Virus record (IMG/VR): IMGVR_UViG_3300034073_003959
Span: 1-40,014 of that record
Length of the DNA: 40,014 nt
Direction: 5' to 3' (one strand)
From: a virus
Below the pieces are notes generated by a model. The model ran no database searches. It was given only the letters and a program-made list of their open reading frames with translations, and had not been told where the DNA came from. A program made the position numbers and the translations under genes. Every line of letters starts with the position of its first letter. The first letter of the stretch is position 1. Of the stretch, positions 31,166 through 40,014 are shown in pieces.

Positions 31166-33586
31166 TCAGGGAGTCGCTTCTTGCGCGTAGCTGAAGCTGG
31201 CGGGCTGCTTGACCGCGAAGTCGACCGACTGGAGCGCGATCACCCGCACGGTCCCGGAGGTGGAGCCGGCGTAGGGATCCACCATCAGATCGAGACCGCC
31301 CCAGAGCGCCATGATCATGGAGCTCCAGTTGCCGAAGAACACGTCCTTGGCGGCGACTTGGTTCGAGACGGTGGTCCGATAGCCGTTCACCTCGCCGTCC
31401 TCGAACACGAAGATGGGGTCGGTGCCGGACTTGGGAGTGGTCTTGAGAGCGCCGCGAGTCGCCGCGTTCATCAAGTAGCCGAGGTTGCCGACGGCCGCGT
31501 TGGCGGTCGCCACCTCGGTCTCCATCAGCACGAACTCCTCGAAGGTGCCGTAGCCGGTGAGATCGACGGAGGCGATGCCGGCCTGCCCGCTCAGGCCGAG
31601 AGGCTGGTTGGAGGAGCCGCTGCCGTAAAGGCCGGCGCGGTCGATCTCCAGACCGAGCACCTCGACGAGGTCGTTCCGGATCATCGACTCGACGTCGATC
31701 GAGCTTTGCATCATCAGCTTCCGGCTGTAGTCGACGTAGGCGCCCAGAGTCTTGGGCGACATGTTGACTTGGTCGACGGTCTGCTGAGATTCGGTGGGCG
31801 ATCCGCCCTCGCCGACCCAGTACGCGGTGCTGGGACCGACTTGCCGGGGGATCGAAATGTCGCCCTGGAGTCCGCTCAGGATCGTCACGCCGAGGCCGGC
31901 GAGAGCGAGCTGGTTACGGAGGAGCTCGATGAAGTCCCCAGGACGGAGCACGTCGTCCACGAGGAACCCGCCGTCGCCCGGAGTCCCGGTGTTCAGGTCG
32001 GCGCGATACGGCGTCCGCAGGACGTCGTAAGGGACCTGGATCCCGGCGGAGGGACGGCCGGTCTTGGCCTGGGAGGCGCGACTCACCTCGAACTCGAAAG
32101 CCGCGGCCTCTTGGAGAGCGCGATCGGTCGGGTTGGCGAGAGCGAGGTAGGCGCGCTGGAAGCTGAAACGCTTGGCCTCGGCCTTGCTCATGCCGATCTC
32201 GGCCGCGCCCTCGCTGGCGAGAGCGACGTCCTGGGCCGGCTTGCGAGCGGTGACGCGCTCGAGCACGATCTCGCGAGCTTGATCCACAGTGGCTCCGTCG
32301 TCGATAAGTTGTTCGGCCAGGACCTCGCCCACCTCGGAGCGAGCGCACATGGCGCGGATGGTTTTCACGCGAGCGCGCTCATCTTCACGAGCGGCAATGC
32401 TCGCGGCCTCGATTGCCGCTTGGTCGGACATGGTCGTTTCGCCTGCTGGTGGGCATGGCGGCAGCGTATCGAGATCGTCTCCCGTTTCAGTCTCGGTCGG
32501 AACAACGATCTCCTCCGCCGAGAGGTCCGGCTCGAGGATCTCGAGGAGAGAGTCCCCCGCGGCCTCGTCGTCGTCGTCGTTGTGGCCCTCTAGGCAGACC
32601 GACGCCTCGACCAGAGCGGCCGGTATCCGCGCGAAACGGCCCTCGGGGATCGGACGCCGGACGGCGGCCTTGATCTCTCGAGGCTCGGAGACCTCGGTGA
32701 CGAATCCCGCCATCAAAGCCTCGTCGCCGGTCATCCACGTCTCGTCTCTCATCATCACGGCGACCTCCTCCTCGCTGACGCCGGTCGCGCCGGCGTAGGT
32801 CTTGCGATAGGCGGCCGAGATCCGCTCGAGGACGTCGGCCTGCGCGCGCATGTCGGCCGCGTCGCCCATAACTCCGCCCCAGGCCTCGTGGATCATCAGG
32901 AAGGCGTTGGTGGGCATGATGCGGACGTCGGCCGCCAGCGGGAAGAGCGAGGCCGCGCTCGCGGCGACGCCCTCGACGACGGCGCGCTTCTTGCCGGGAT
33001 ACCTCGCGAGGAGGTTGTGGATGGCGATGCCTTGGAGCGCGTCCCCGCCGTAAGAGTCGACCGAGATCGTGATCGGCCGGCCGTCGGCCTCCTTCAACGC
33101 CCGCGTCACGCCGGCGACGGTGATGTCCCAACCGACCTCGCCGTACAGACCGAGGCGCAGCGCGCCGTCGGTCTCGGAGAGGAGCTGGACGGCGGCCCGC
33201 GGCGCGGTGGTCGCCGCGGACGAGGCGGCGGCCGACGATTGCTCGCGGAGCTCCTCGATCCGAGCCGCTTTCGCGTCGGCCCAAGTTTTGCCGGGGTCTC
33301 CTCCCCAAGCCGCCCAGGCGACGCGACCGGGCGACGGGTAGCCGTCCTCGCCGGGGTCGAATCCTTCCGCTTGTTTGTCGACCTCGTGTCGAGCGAACCA
33401 GGCCCGCATCGTTATGACGGTGTCCGGGCCGATCTCGTCGCCGGAGAGGATCTGTCCCGCGCGAGTGGCCGCGGCCTCCTGGCCTCCTTCGCGGCCCTCA
33501 GCCTTCCACGCCCGATACCTCTCCGCCTCCTCTCTCATCCCCTCGGTGGGGGTGAGGTCGATCTCGGTTCCGTTGATGTTCGCCAT
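31166..33586 (-). CDS. Fused ClpP-type prohead protease and HK97-fold major capsid protein
   Basis: 806 residues from ATG 33586. Residues about 1-115 form a phage-associated domain with an RAWFARHEVDK helix (61-71) and RVAWAAWGGDPGKTW (88-102). Residues about 140-310 are a ClpP/S14-like protease with Ser210 (VEGVAASAASLF), His233 (MIHEAW) and an acidic RDETW near 280-284. Residues 340-520 are an acidic, charged scaffold-like stretch. Residues about 525-806 are an HK97-fold capsid protein (GDGGFLVDDVLRPGDFIELL, GDISIPRQ, YWVGEGGSP). An internal ATG at residue 386 (genome 32431) could give capsid alone. The late element lies 27 nt upstream. Confidence 0.88.
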   Translation of the reverse strand: MANINGTEIDLTPTEGMREEAERYRAWKAEGREGGQEAAATRAGQILSGDEIGPDTVITMRAWFARHEVDKQAEGFDPGEDGYPSPGRVAWAAWGGDPGKTWADAKAARIEELREQSSAAASSAATTAPRAAVQLLSETDGALRLGLYGEVGWDITVAGVTRALKEADGRPITISVDSYGGDALQGIAIHNLLARYPGKKRAVVEGVAASAASLFPLAADVRIMPTNAFLMIHEAWGGVMGDAADMRAQADVLERISAAYRKTYAGATGVSEEEVAVMMRDETWMTGDEALMAGFVTEVSEPREIKAAVRRPIPEGRFARIPAALVEASVCLEGHNDDDDEAAGDSLLEILEPDLSAEEIVVPTETETGDDLDTLPPCPPAGETTMSDQAAIEAASIAAREDERARVKTIRAMCARSEVGEVLAEQLIDDGATVDQAREIVLERVTARKPAQDVALASEGAAEIGMSKAEAKRFSFQRAYLALANPTDRALQEAAAFEFEVSRASQAKTGRPSAGIQVPYDVLRTPYRADLNTGTPGDGGFLVDDVLRPGDFIELLRNQLALAGLGVTILSGLQGDISIPRQVGPSTAYWVGEGGSPTESQQTVDQVNMSPKTLGAYVDYSRKLMMQSSIDVESMIRNDLVEVLGLEIDRAGLYGSGSSNQPLGLSGQAGIASVDLTGYGTFEEFVLMETEVATANAAVGNLGYLMNAATRGALKTTPKSGTDPIFVFEDGEVNGYRTTVSNQVAAKDVFFGNWSSMIMALWGGLDLMVDPYAGSTSGTVRVIALQSVDFAVKQPASFSYAQEATP

Positions 33587-35814: not shown

Positions 35815-37728
35815 TCAACTCAGCATCCCGAAGGATCGACGTCGCGCCGCTGAGGGTCGCGCCGCCGGCGGAGAGACGTCCTTGCCTCTCTGACGCTCGA
35901 GGTGCTCGGCGAGTTGCTGCCACATCGTCGCCCGGTTGAACCGCCGGTAAGCGAGGTGCAGCATCGCCAGGGAGTAGACGAGGAGGTCGAGCGGTTCGTT
36001 GCGCGCGCCGGAAGGCTTGATCCACTCGCGGACGGGGAATCCTTTGACGTGGCGGATCGCCAAACGTTCGGAGGTGAGTCCCTTGAGGAACTCCTCCGTC
36101 CCGAGCTCGCCGAAGTGGATGTAGCCCGGACCCGGATCGCTGAACCGCAGCCGCGCGTAGATGGTCGACTTCAACGCGTCGGTCCCGACCATGTAGAGGG
36201 TCAGCCCGCGGCGGACCGTCTTGCCCTTGTAGTTGACGTCGATCTTGTTGCCGCGGCCGAGCGGCGGCGCGTTGCGGGTCGAGCTCCCCTTGATCGGCAC
36301 GACGCCGCTCCCGCGGGTCCGGCAGTAGTGGTAGACCTCGGAGGTGAAGTGGCCGCCGGAGTCGACCGCGAGGTAGGTGAGCCCGAGCGTGCCGCCGCCG
36401 GCCGCCGGCCATCGAGTCGTCCGGATCGTGTCGAGCTGTCGCCAGACGTCGTCCTGCGCCGGATCGCCCTCGATCTTCTGGTGCCAAACGAGCCAGAGCT
36501 CCTCGCCGAGACCGGCGGCGTAGACCGAGACCTCGAGCCAGGTGTCTTGGACGTCGACCGCGCCAACGAGCAGGACGCCGCCGTCGGGCACGACGCCGGC
36601 TTTGTAGGGGTCCGCCATCGAGCGCGCGAGGAGGCCCTCGGCCGAGAGCTTGGCGGCGTATTCGTCCTCGAACGGCTCGCCGAGCGTCGTGTTGACGAAG
36701 ACCTTGAGCGTCGTCGGGTCGCGCTTGGCCCGGAGGAAGTCCTCGACGATCTCGCGCCAGGACCGCCAACCGAGAGGCGAGTAGAGGGAGGAGAGCTGGA
36801 AGCCGGCGGTCTTGCCGTCGCCTTCCGCCGTCGCCACCCAGCGGCCGGCCGGGAGGAACGTCGCTTTGCTCTGCTCCGGCCAACGAGCGCCGCAGGCCTC
36901 GCACTCGTATCCGACCGTCTCGGGTCGATCGTCCTCCCATTTCATCTGCTGCCAACGGAGGTGTTGGTAGTGGCCGCACTCCGGGCAGGGGACCTCGTAA
37001 CGACGCTGATCGGATCGGAGGTATTCCCGCTCGATCCGAGAGAAGTCCTTGATCGTCGGCGTCGACGTCATGAGGATCTTGCGGCGCGCGAAGGTGTTGG
37101 TCCGCCGCTCGGCGAGGGTGAGCGGATCGCCCTCTCCCTCGACGTCGAGCGGCCAGGCGTCGAGCTCGTCCGCGAAGACGTACCGACAAGGCATCGAGCG
37201 GAGAGCCGTTGCGGAGTTGGCGCCGGTGAGGACGAGGATCCCGCCGGGGAAGTCCTTGGAGAAAAGGGTGTTGCCGGAGTCGCGGGAGCGCGCCGGCGCG
37301 ATGCGTTCCGCGAGGACCGGCGTCTCGGTCAGCATCGTCTCGAGGCGCTGCCGGCTGAGGCGCTTCGCCATTTCGACCGTCGGTTGGACGGCGAGCAGGG
37401 GTCCCGGCGCGTGGTGGATGCAGTAGCCGAGCCAGTTCGACCCGCACTCGGTCTTCCCGAGCTGGGCGCCGAACATCAAGACGACGCGCTGGATCGGACT
37501 CGTCGTCGAGAGCTCGTTCATCGGCTCTCGGAGGTAAGGGGTCCGGTCGGTCCGCCAGGGACCCGGCTCGGCCGAGGCCTTGCTGCTGAGCTGCCGGTAG
37601 CGATCGGCCCACTCGGAGACGGTGAGCGTCGGTTCGGGTCGGAGGCCGTCGAACCAGTGATCGCGGAACAAGGCCGCGCCCTCGCGGAGCGGAGCGGCGG
37701 CGACGGGTCGGAGGACGGAGGAGGTCAT
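35815..37728 (-). CDS. terL: Terminase large subunit (lambda gpA-like)
   Basis: 637 residues from ATG 37728. Walker A-like MFGAQLGKTECGSNW (about 84-98), then VQPTVEMAKRLSRQRLETML and YVFADELDAWPLDVEGEGDP as Walker B. A zinc-binding pair CPECGHYQH and CEACGARW (about 226-262) and a nuclease domain with VGAVDVQDTWLEVSVYAAG near 390 complete the GpA_ATPase-type terminase layout. It cuts and pumps phage DNA with TerS. Its start overlaps the TerS stop. A cos-type packaging strategy is usual for this family, but no cos site was located. Confidence 0.92.
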   Translation of the reverse strand: MTSSVLRPVAAAPLREGAALFRDHWFDGLRPEPTLTVSEWADRYRQLSSKASAEPGPWRTDRTPYLREPMNELSTTSPIQRVVLMFGAQLGKTECGSNWLGYCIHHAPGPLLAVQPTVEMAKRLSRQRLETMLTETPVLAERIAPARSRDSGNTLFSKDFPGGILVLTGANSATALRSMPCRYVFADELDAWPLDVEGEGDPLTLAERRTNTFARRKILMTSTPTIKDFSRIEREYLRSDQRRYEVPCPECGHYQHLRWQQMKWEDDRPETVGYECEACGARWPEQSKATFLPAGRWVATAEGDGKTAGFQLSSLYSPLGWRSWREIVEDFLRAKRDPTTLKVFVNTTLGEPFEDEYAAKLSAEGLLARSMADPYKAGVVPDGGVLLVGAVDVQDTWLEVSVYAAGLGEELWLVWHQKIEGDPAQDDVWRQLDTIRTTRWPAAGGGTLGLTYLAVDSGGHFTSEVYHYCRTRGSGVVPIKGSSTRNAPPLGRGNKIDVNYKGKTVRRGLTLYMVGTDALKSTIYARLRFSDPGPGYIHFGELGTEEFLKGLTSERLAIRHVKGFPVREWIKPSGARNEPLDLLVYSLAMLHLAYRRFNRATMWQQLAEHLERQRGKDVSPPAARPSAARRRSFGMLS

Positions 37729-38276
37729 TGCTCGAGGAACGTGTCGAGCGCGTCGCGGAGCGCGTTGGAGAGGGAGAGGTGGACGAGCGCCGGCTCGGCG
37801 AGCGCCGCGAGCTCGTTGGAGATCCGATCGGGGATGTTCATCAGCGCGTCGCGGAGCCGACGGCCTTGCTCGAAGGCCTCCTTCCGGACGTCGTCAGCGA
37901 GGACGCGCGCGCCGGTCTCGCGCTCGAACTCGACGCGAGCGAGGCGAGCCATGTAGGCCTCGCGAATCGCGCGGGAGACGTTTCGGGAGGGGACGTTGGC
38001 GAGGCCCGGATCGCTCGAGGCCTCCTCCTCGGCGCGAGGGGGGGGCGACTGGACTCGACCCGGACCGTTGCCGCCGCGGGTCGAGTCGGTTGCGCCGGCC
38101 CATTCGAGGTCCGCGATCGCGGGGTCGATGTACCACCGATCGCCGACCTTGCGGGCGGACCTCTCGGTGAGTCGTCCGGTGTTGATCGCCTTGAGGACCG
38201 AGGCGTGGGTCTGACCGCGTAGCCCCTGCGACTTCCGGTGATCGGCGTAACCCTGGAGGCTCAGTCCTTCCGCCAT
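37725..38276 (-). CDS. terS: Terminase small subunit (Nu1-like)
   Basis: 183 residues from ATG 38276. N-terminal GYADHRKSQGLRGQTHASVL, then KAINTGRLTERSARKVGDRW, form an HTH that recognises packaging DNA in Nu1-type subunits. The middle is Pro/Gly-rich. The C-terminal helices (IREAYMARLARVEFERETG, later ALMNIPDRISNELAAL) match the oligomerisation and TerL-binding part. Overlap with the TerL start (ATGA) is as expected. Confidence 0.85.
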   Translation of the reverse strand: MAEGLSLQGYADHRKSQGLRGQTHASVLKAINTGRLTERSARKVGDRWYIDPAIADLEWAGATDSTRGGNGPGRVQSPPPRAEEEASSDPGLANVPSRNVSRAIREAYMARLARVEFERETGARVLADDVRKEAFEQGRRLRDALMNIPDRISNELAALAEPALVHLSLSNALRDALDTFLEQ

Positions 38277-38286
38277 CCGCTCGCCG

Positions 38287-39123
38287 TCATTTGCGGCCTC
38301 GATGGCCGGGTTGGATCTCGCCGGGGTGCTCCTCCCGCTGGGTGCGACGTCGCGCCGCCTCGATCTGTTCGATCGCCGCGGAGTAGCAGTCCTTCATGCC
38401 GCGGATCGCGTAGTGGACGACGCTGTAGCGATACGCGGAGTCGTCCACCGGCCGCATCGGCGTGACGCCGTGGACGAGCTCGTTGCCGGGGAAAAAGACG
38501 ACCCATCCGTCCCGACAGGGGAGAGTCACGTCGTACTCCGGGAGGTGGAGTCGACCGCCGCGCATCCCGCGCCGGAGCACCGGCATCCCCGTCCACGTCG
38601 GGAAGTTGGCCCGGTCCCGGTGATACGGCAAGGCGGAGGAGAGGTTGATGTTGCCCGACGTCCACAGAGATCCGGGGACCATCCGCCAGTCCTCGTGGAC
38701 GCGAGAGACGGTCTCGCGGTCCCGCTCCCAAACGGTCGGCGCGACCTCCTTCATAAAGTCGCCGAGGACCGCGGCGACGCGGAGGAGGACGGCGCACTCG
38801 TCGGGTTGGTCGACGTGGAGCGACGCGGGCTTGCAGCCCTCGCGGCGAAGGATGACGCTCCGGCCCGCCATGCCGAAGGTCCGGGAGGTGTTGCGCGTCC
38901 CCGAGCCCCGAAGGATGGTCGAGAACTTGATCGCGCGGACGGCGGCCCGGTAGACCGCCAGGTCGAAGGGGAGACGGCAGTAGCAGAGGACCGGCTCGCT
39001 GGTCTCGCCGTCGAGGAACAAGGTCTCGCCGTCGTGCGTCGGCTCGAGGTCCGGGACCTCCTGGCCGATGTAGACGTCGGCCTCAGTCCGAGAGAGGACG
39101 CGGGGTAGCTCGAGGGTCTCCAT
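38287..39123 (-). CDS. TET/JBP-like 2-oxoglutarate/Fe(II) dioxygenase
   Basis: 278 residues from ATG 39123. N-terminal SRTFGMAGRS (80-89) is a segment typical of phage TET/JBP enzymes. The Fe ligands are His168 and Asp170 in PYHRDRANF and His218 in NELVHGVTPM. The 2OG-binding Arg is likely Arg232 in YRYSVVHYA, and Cys246 in GMKDC matches the family end. The connecting strands are MRGGRLHLPEYDV and DGWVVFFPG. Phage members oxidise 5-methylcytosine in DNA to hydroxymethylcytosine, which other enzymes then modify further. It lies between a ParB-like gene and TerS. No cytosine methyltransferase is seen in this window, so the substrate is unproven. Confidence 0.85.
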   Translation of the reverse strand: METLELPRVLSRTEADVYIGQEVPDLEPTHDGETLFLDGETSEPVLCYCRLPFDLAVYRAAVRAIKFSTILRGSGTRNTSRTFGMAGRSVILRREGCKPASLHVDQPDECAVLLRVAAVLGDFMKEVAPTVWERDRETVSRVHEDWRMVPGSLWTSGNINLSSALPYHRDRANFPTWTGMPVLRRGMRGGRLHLPEYDVTLPCRDGWVVFFPGNELVHGVTPMRPVDDSAYRYSVVHYAIRGMKDCYSAAIEQIEAARRRTQREEHPGEIQPGHRGRK

Positions 39124-39839
39124 CAGATCGCCTCCCGGATCAGCTTGGCGACGATCTCGGCGTTGCTCGAGACCTCGTTGCGTTCGCGGAGCTCGCGGAG
39201 GATCTCGACCAGCTCGGCGAACTCGTCGAGCGGATACTCGAGCATCAGCGCCTTGGTCGCCTTGTTGCGGTAGCCCTCAAGGAACTCGTTGAAGCTCTGA
39301 TCCTGACGGACCTCGCCGTCCGTCTCCGGCTCGTTCGCCCCGGCGCCGGCGCCGCGGATCTGAGCGGCGCCGGCCTCCGCCGCCGCGGCCAACGTCTCGA
39401 CGGGGATGGCCTCCTCCAGCGCGGCCTTGAGGTCGTCGAGCTCCTCGGCGGACCAACCGAGACCGTCGAAGTCCATTCGGAACTCGGCCTCGAGGCGCGC
39501 GATCTCGTCCGCCAGGAGTCCGTCGTCCCATCGGGCCATCTCGGCCGTCCGGTTGTCGACGAGGACGTACGCCCGACGCTGCGCCTCGGAGAGGTGATCG
39601 AGGGGGATGACCGGGACCTGCGTCATCCCGATCTGGATCGCGGCCTTGAGCCGTCCGTGTCCCGCCAGGATCCCGCTGTCGCCGTCGACGAGGATCGGAT
39701 TGTTGAAGCCGAGCTCGCGGATCGAGCGCGCGATCGCGTCGATCTGGGACTGGGGATGGAGGCGCGCGTTACGCGCGTAGGGGATCAGCTTGTCGACCGG
39801 CCAGAGCTGGATCCGCTCCGCCATTTGCTGCGCGCCCAT
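39123..39839 (-). CDS. ParB/Srx-like DNA-binding protein
   Basis: 238 residues from ATG 39839. Residues 9-100 form a ParB/Srx-like domain: IQLWPVDKLIPYARNARLHP, IDAIARSIRELGFNNPILVD, GILAGHGRLKAAIQIGMTQV (the ParB GHGRL box) and YVLVDNRTAEMARWDDG. The C-terminal half has a Glu-rich helix (LEEAIPVETLAAAAEAGAAQ) and a final charged helix. In many phages this domain is attached to, or lies next to, DNA methyltransferases. Here it stands alone beside the TET-like enzyme, with overlapping codons between the two genes, so they probably act together. Copy G of the late element lies 33 nt upstream. Confidence 0.82.
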   Translation of the reverse strand: MGAQQMAERIQLWPVDKLIPYARNARLHPQSQIDAIARSIRELGFNNPILVDGDSGILAGHGRLKAAIQIGMTQVPVIPLDHLSEAQRRAYVLVDNRTAEMARWDDGLLADEIARLEAEFRMDFDGLGWSAEELDDLKAALEEAIPVETLAAAAEAGAAQIRGAGAGANEPETDGEVRQDQSFNEFLEGYRNKATKALMLEYPLDEFAELVEILRELRERNEVSSNAEIVAKLIREAI

Positions 39840-39872
39840 CTGAGTCCGGACTGGAACCTGATACCGCGAGGC

Positions 39873-39887
39873 TACAGGCTCCGGAGA
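39873..39887 (-). promoter_or_regulatory. Repeated late intergenic element, copy G (weak)
   Basis: Transcription-direction sequence TCTCCGGAGCCTGTA, 33 nt before the ParB-like ATG (39839). It shares CTCCG-AGCCTG with copy C. If real, it would mark the first promoter of the whole late cluster. Confidence 0.4.
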
Positions 39888-39987
39888 AAAGTGTCGGGAT
39901 CGGCGGCGCGCCCGTTACGGCAGCGGATCGCGCCCGTCGAGATCCTTTGCGGCGCAATAGCTCAAACCATCGCCGGAGCTCGACGCT

Positions 39988-40004
39988 AGGCAAAAAAAGT
40001 GCCT
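39988..40004. other. Small hairpin with A-rich loop near the right end
   Basis: AGGCA and TGCCT arms of five bases around a seven-base loop (A6, G). It lies in the 175-nt region upstream of the ParB-like gene, where the only other item noted is late-element copy G (39873-39887). No T-run follows on either strand, so it is not a normal terminator. Shown because it is the most AT-rich patch in the region; function not known. Confidence 0.2.
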
Positions 40005-40014
40005 GGAGGCGACC

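Follow-up and report, generated by a model that had tools for sequence, protein, structure and literature searches.

ParB-like proteins are already known from the neighbourhood of DNA-modification enzymes. In the Rhodococcus phage Tonitrus, a ParB gene and a TET gene lie at the genome end, and thymidine hypermodification has been proposed for its ParB, TET, aGPT-Pplase2 and 5-hmU-kinase genes (PMC11955845). The mycobacteriophages Nigel and Prince and the Gordonia phage CaiB also carry a ParB–TET pair at the genome end before the terminase, and the cyanophage MED4-184 has a ParB gene, an FkbM methyltransferase gene and a TET gene. ParB-like genes occur with other chemistries as well. DpdB, which accompanies DpdA, is ParB-like (PMC6392294) and precedes DpdA at the same genome end in the mycobacteriophages CRB2 and Godines, and the CmoX carboxymethylcytosine genes are often found near a ParB-domain gene whose role was called unknown by the authors (PMC12783734).

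The window analysed here is an entire IMG/VR virus contig of 40,014 bases, in which a ParB-like gene and a TET-like gene are followed directly by the genes for the small (TerS) and large (TerL) terminase subunits:

39840..40014, no strand: probable cos-type genome end, with a CCTAGCG element at 39984-39990; the distance to parB and the element are common to relatives
39123..39839, minus strand: ParB-like protein of 238 amino acids, partner of the oxygenase (phrog_620, 8.5e-49)
39405..39839, minus strand: ParB N-domain, amino acids ~1-145, the constant part of the slot (identity to other ParBs)
39126..39272, minus strand: ParB C-terminal tail of TET type, amino acids 190-238 (Smith-Waterman match to the L289 tail)
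38287..39123, minus strand: TET/JBP-family 2-oxoglutarate/Fe(II) dioxygenase of 278 amino acids (PF12851, phrog_6059, catalytic residues)
37725..38276, minus strand: terminase small subunit (terS), downstream border of the slot (phrog_57, 2.5e-13)
35815..37728, minus strand: terminase large subunit of GpA type (GpA_ATPase/GpA_nuclease; PF05876 and PF20454)

The window resembles Tonitrus in its ParB and TET genes at the genome end, in a TET that is 49% identical and in a ParB tail of the same type. In Tonitrus, however, an ADDT/aGPT-Pplase2-type transferase and a 5-hmU kinase accompany the TET, which stands alone in the window; the backbone of the window is of GpA type, and the N-domain of its ParB belongs to a different lineage. 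Nigel, Prince and CaiB share the tail family with the window, but they carry a Ploopntkinase3 gene before the terminase (together with an ADDT gene in Prince and CaiB), whereas the window lacks a kinase and its TerS is genuine. MED4-184 has the same kind of cassette, but its TET is only 24% identical to that of the window and matches Tet_JBP below the cut-off (26.8 bits, against 45 bits, above it, for its relative L055), its ParB tail is of another type and its methyltransferase gene lies between parB and the TET gene. The CmoX systems differ in their chemistry and in a zinc-ribbon-like ParB tail, and the DpdA/DpdB systems in inserting preQ0-type bases by transglycosylation and in a different ParB tail. 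As a separate observation on annotation, Nigel gp3 (L003:1786-2382), recorded as 'terminase small subunit', matches Ploopntkinase3 at 242.6 bits, and the corresponding AlanGrant gene bears both names.

The explanation that we prefer, and regard as probable when taken as a whole, is that the ParB–TET pair forms a minimal cassette for DNA base modification. In phage DNA, the TET/JBP enzyme would hydroxylate thymine at its methyl group to give 5-hydroxymethyluracil, a change that would shield the phage genome against nucleases of the host. The ParB-like protein would be the common helper of the cassette slot and not a partition protein: its N-domain, of the ParB/sulfiredoxin type, would belong to the phage, and its C-terminal tail would be matched to the enzyme, either docking it or supplying the DNA site of the pair. 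Within the stretch from the parB N-domain to terS, recombination would replace the ParB tail together with the enzyme genes and would so change the base chemistry.

Membership of the oxygenase in the TET/JBP family, which the first-pass annotation had proposed from its motifs, was confirmed by profile search, with a match to PF12851 (Tet_JBP) of 38.2 bits, above the curated cut-off of 34.9 (Pfam), and to phrog_6059 of 242 bits (PHROGs). The Fe(II) ligand set HxD...H and the 2-oxoglutarate-binding arginine, given in that annotation as HxD...H...R, are present, and an alignment of 42 relatives revealed that H168 and D170 (HRD), H218 (HGVTP) and R232 (YR) are invariant; the SRTFG motif was located at residues 80-84, of which S80, F83 and G84 are invariant. 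When the family profile was compared with solved structures, NgTet1 was matched at E 0.003-0.004 and TET2 less well, at E 0.11. The top-ranked structure, a designed TIM barrel, was rejected as a spurious partial match. The closest TETs, 42-52% identical, come from actinophages and IMG/VR contigs. It is scarcely credible that the protein belongs to another 2-oxoglutarate-dependent family or is a queuine tRNA-ribosyltransferase, the label attached to phrog_6059 and to many GenBank records, given the Tet_JBP match, the invariant HxD/H/R set and the lack of any TGT family match in Pfam. True DpdA/TGT genes fall in phrog_887 and phrog_7068, not in phrog_6059, and we consider the label an annotation error. 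The open reading frames lie beside the terminase genes as first described, the oxygenase and ParB-like frames having one base in common in a TGATG stop/start overlap, and the third-position GC of both is high, like that of the remaining phage genes.

The right contig edge, 175 bases upstream of parB, is probably a cos-type genome end. The corresponding base is also where about a dozen other contigs terminate. In the isolated Rhodobacter phages RcBaka and RcDormio, parB lies 164 bases from the genome start and the CCTAGCG element is shared, and in most such contigs and phages a CCTAGCG-like element is found ~20-30 bases from the end. The left edge lacks the gene found ahead of cos in relatives, so the left end of the genome is probably incomplete and some early genes are probably missing. 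The earlier suggestion that further modification genes might lie outside the window is therefore unlikely for the DNA upstream of parB, where no genes would be missing if the right edge is the genome end, and may apply to the left end, where a kinase or transferase could be out of view. The best annotated matches of TerL are those of the Synechococcus phages S-CBS3 and S-CBS1 (56-57% identity), which makes the previous designation as a cyanophage a fair, not a proven, description of the backbone. Elsewhere in the backbone, a single 806-amino-acid open reading frame (31166-33586, minus strand) combines a ClpP-like head maturation protease with a major capsid domain.

Assignment of the adjoining gene to a ParB-like family was likewise borne out (phrog_620), although the ParB_N match over residues 29-96 stayed below threshold (22.5 bits versus a cut-off of 26.3; Pfam) and ParB/Noc structures matched weakly over residues 4-122. 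Partition ParBs combine ParB_N, HTH and dimerisation domains; here the sub-threshold ParB_N region is followed by a tail of another type, a Pfam scan found no HTH domain, and no ParA was detected among the window genes scanned (Pfam, PHROGs). Because the protein retrieved no relatives as a single-protein scan query, alignments were used for comparison with other ParBs. Its N-domain is 55-59% identical to those of ParBs with radical SAM, ABC-GNAT, C5-methyltransferase or DpdA cassettes. Its tail matches that of the TET-associated ParB L289 with a Smith-Waterman score of 155 (shuffles 24.8, sd 4.5), the N-domains of the two being 32% identical. Against TET-associated ParBs from unrelated phages, with N-domains 30-33% identical, the tail reaches scores of 138-155, and its nearest neighbours as a whole are TET-type ParBs with N-domain identities of 28-34%; against the tails of its nearest N-domain relatives, which accompany other enzymes, it remains at background. 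By these comparisons the window ParB is a chimera, with an N-domain like those of ParBs with other chemistries and a tail like those of TET partners elsewhere.

By eye, several ParB tails resemble either a strand followed by two helices, as in a ribbon-helix-helix, or a zinc ribbon of CxxC type, and the window tail looks like the former. Comparison of the tail profile with PDB sequences gave marginal or short partial matches and no convincing fold (nickel regulator, E 1.4); a ribbon-helix-helix fold is thus suggested by inspection. Tails of this appearance might have DNA, and not the enzyme, as their binding partner.

Phages whose large terminases are related carry quite different genes in the interval that begins in parB and ends at the conserved terS start:

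FkbM methyltransferase and TET: L055, L084
C5-methyltransferase: L022
C5-methyltransferase, asparagine-synthase-like ligase and SAM methyltransferase: L023
Mom: L030, L036
radical SAM: L015, L042, L043
TET-associated glycosyltransferase and UDP-galactopyranose-mutase-like gene (the mutase by eye): L054
ABC-ATPase/GNAT fusion: L029
DpdA, QueC and other preQ0-type genes: L083
no enzyme: L066-L074

The set in L023, with its C5-methyltransferase, AsnB-like and SAM-methyltransferase genes, is CmoX-like. The window has the same organization, being bordered by the ParB N-domain and terS and having a tail matched to its enzyme; the first-pass annotation had noted neither the exchangeable slot nor the match of tail and enzyme.

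Comparison of close phages indicated how such differences arise. Between L055 (FkbM methyltransferase and TET) and L083 (DpdA and Que genes), 294 bases in the N-part of parB align at 94.2% identity and 1,821 bases starting at terS at 94.5%, and nothing can be aligned between these flanks. The same pattern was found for L139 (C5-methyltransferase) and L366 (TET and FkbM), with 89.9% on the parB N-part and 88.4% on the terS side, for L360 (Mom) and L366 (86.3/88.6%) and for L030 (Mom) and L049 (TAGT; 83.8/88.3%), so that flanks are 84-94% identical while the DNA between them has nothing in common. One near-isogenic group holds L139, L360, L364 (ABC-GNAT) and L366, L364 being placed there by its ParB N-part, which is 85% identical to a reference also used for L139 and L366. 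Isolated phages repeat the pattern: within the genus Sourvirus, CaiB has a TET, Sour has DpdA/Que and NHagos has ABC-GNAT, and the Bclasvirinae isolates Nigel, Quesadilla and AlanGrant also differ in cassette. In pairs of isolated phages the flanks are ~72-83% identical, and similarity is absent from parB codon ~120-140 to the next conserved gene. Alignment of these genomes shows the slot between the ParB N-domain and terS to be the site of modification-cassette exchange, and because the junctions fall inside parB, in the conserved N-domain, the C-terminal tail moves with the enzyme.

The correspondence between tail and enzyme was quantified on standalone ParBs that were collected, dereplicated at 80% identity and labelled by downstream enzyme class, using 60 dereplicated ParBs of the lineage that includes the window and the identical sequence set for tails and N-domains; as the ParBs were gathered partly with class-specific queries, class frequencies in this set are not representative. 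The nearest tail belonged to the same enzyme class in 58/60 cases and the nearest N-domain in 29/60, compared with a mean of 21% and a maximum of 37% for shuffled labels, which serve as a yardstick and not as an exact probability because the sequences are related by descent. With partners restricted to less than 60% N-domain identity, the tail was right in 55/60 and the N-domain in 15/60. Pairs with different enzymes had tail scores at background (median 20-23) even where their N-domains were 70-90% identical. The two mispredictions by tail were L083 (DpdA) and L360, a Mom-associated ParB with a CxxC tail, so Mom has two tail types. Prediction across lineages (N-domain identity below 45%) is uninformative for classes confined to one lineage. 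The ABC-GNAT tail spans two N-lineages, with a score of 130 between NHagos and L029 (shuffles 30, sd 5.5); DpdA tails gave no match between N-lineages.

Because the tail adjoins the cassette, its match to the enzyme could be due to nothing more than linkage: recombination in the N-domain would drag along the rest of parB and the next genes, and ParB would be functionally unlinked to them. The position of the junctions in the conserved N-domain fits this account, as does the existence of ParBs without an enzyme. In L066-L074 (tail score 84), as in L335-L337, a TET-like tail sits on a ParB directly before terS, with no TET found in a searched 48 kb contig, and the ParB of RcBaka has no recognizable enzyme, so ParB may have another role; these ParBs weigh against a functional tail, as do the two Mom tails and the lineage dependence of DpdA tails. 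On the other hand, tail families keep their enzyme across N-lineages that are ~30% identical (the window; NHagos/L029). In MED4-184-type systems the tail tracks a TET that mostly lies 0.5-2.2 kb downstream behind other, differing genes, and accessory genes vary whereas the tail stays constant and follows the base-acting enzyme. Because tails behave in these ways we favour function, and mere linkage appears to us fairly unlikely. Packaging or genome segregation as the task of ParB, with the TET as an independent passenger, would suit a gene that adjoins cos, terS and terL and again the enzyme-free ParBs of RcBaka and L066-L074, but is difficult to reconcile with a tail that changes with the enzyme, with the missing HTH domain or with ParB-like genes accompanying modification cassettes in unrelated backbones too; we hold this role to be very doubtful.

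A role of the ParB–TET pair in DNA base modification, as the first-pass annotation had envisaged, is supported by the gene context, which points to a different base from the 5-methylcytosine named there. TET cassettes of relatives hold amino acid:DNA transferases (ADDT), P-loop kinase 3 (Ploopntkinase3) and glycosyltransferase-like genes, and PLP and FAD enzymes are likewise found in the cassettes of the nearest TETs. Animal TETs and some phage TETs act on 5-methylcytosine, and 4 of 24 long IMG/VR contigs with related TETs (TET1) contain a C5-methyltransferase, as expected if the enzyme oxidized host- or phage-made 5-methylcytosine to 5-hydroxymethylcytosine. That reading seems unlikely to us: the other 20/24 contigs and all ten complete named phage genomes with such TETs lack the methyltransferase, a PF00145 search of the window's 40 kb, whose left end may be incomplete, agreed with the earlier statement that none is present, and the ADDT and Ploopntkinase3 partners are thymidine hypermodification genes. 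From these partners, the mostly absent C5-methyltransferases and the Tonitrus proposal, we infer that thymine is the more likely substrate. In thymidine hypermodification a kinase and an amino-acid transferase stand beside the TET; many relatives have such genes, but in the window TerS follows the TET directly, with neither between them. L270 and the clade L266/L269/L275/L278 likewise have TET-only cassettes. With no kinase or transferase adjacent and the left end out of view, the simplest product would be unadorned 5-hydroxymethyluracil. Pairs of an FkbM-type methyltransferase and a TET were also observed in L055, L084, L004 and L366 (L366 by eye), in either gene order, and there the methyltransferase might O-methylate the hydroxymethyl base.

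As the swapped-in enzymes each come with a matching ParB tail, ParB probably serves them as a shared adaptor whose tail is specific to the enzyme. We lean, with some reserve, towards extending this to phage ParB-like proteins in general, as universal adaptors in which a common N-domain would handle DNA or nucleotides and an enzyme-specific tail would recruit or target the enzyme, tail and enzyme being swapped together beside cos and the terminase; TET, Mom, C5-methyltransferase/CmoX, DpdA, radical SAM and ABC-GNAT enzymes would all be covered. The enzyme-specific tail appears to be the observation added here; a literature search of partial coverage turned up no account of this tail or of the swapping of cassettes, and we make no claim of priority. 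Tail–enzyme matching offers a hypothesis for the part played by ParB in modification systems, left open in the 2025 CmoX paper (PMC12783734), and lets the enzyme class be predicted from ParB alone. The cassette works like a plug-in modification module. Near-identical phages can differ completely in their DNA-modification genes, a point of relevance to restriction and counter-defence.

The radical SAM and ABC-GNAT/formyltransferase cassettes, each with its own conserved tail, also offer a route to new base modifications. Radical SAM stands alone in the slot with its own ParB tail type in L015 (782-2041), L042 and L043, a candidate for a base modification not yet described. ABC-ATPase/GNAT genes occupy the slot in L029 (1396-2553), L364, L534 and NHagos (L555:630-2473), with a ParB tail conserved across unrelated phages, and are candidates for a modification of a new kind; NHagos and, by eye, L364 have a formyltransferase as well. 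In MED4-184, CPAG_00033 (L004:15790-16431) is named 'DNA methylase', yet a ParB-like domain is all it holds, the name probably deriving from ParB–methyltransferase fusions. In Phlyer (L552:1069-2717), a PAPS-reductase (IbrA) and a second ParB-like gene (IbrB) lie before the terminase, near the gene-1 ParB, and are possibly another cassette.
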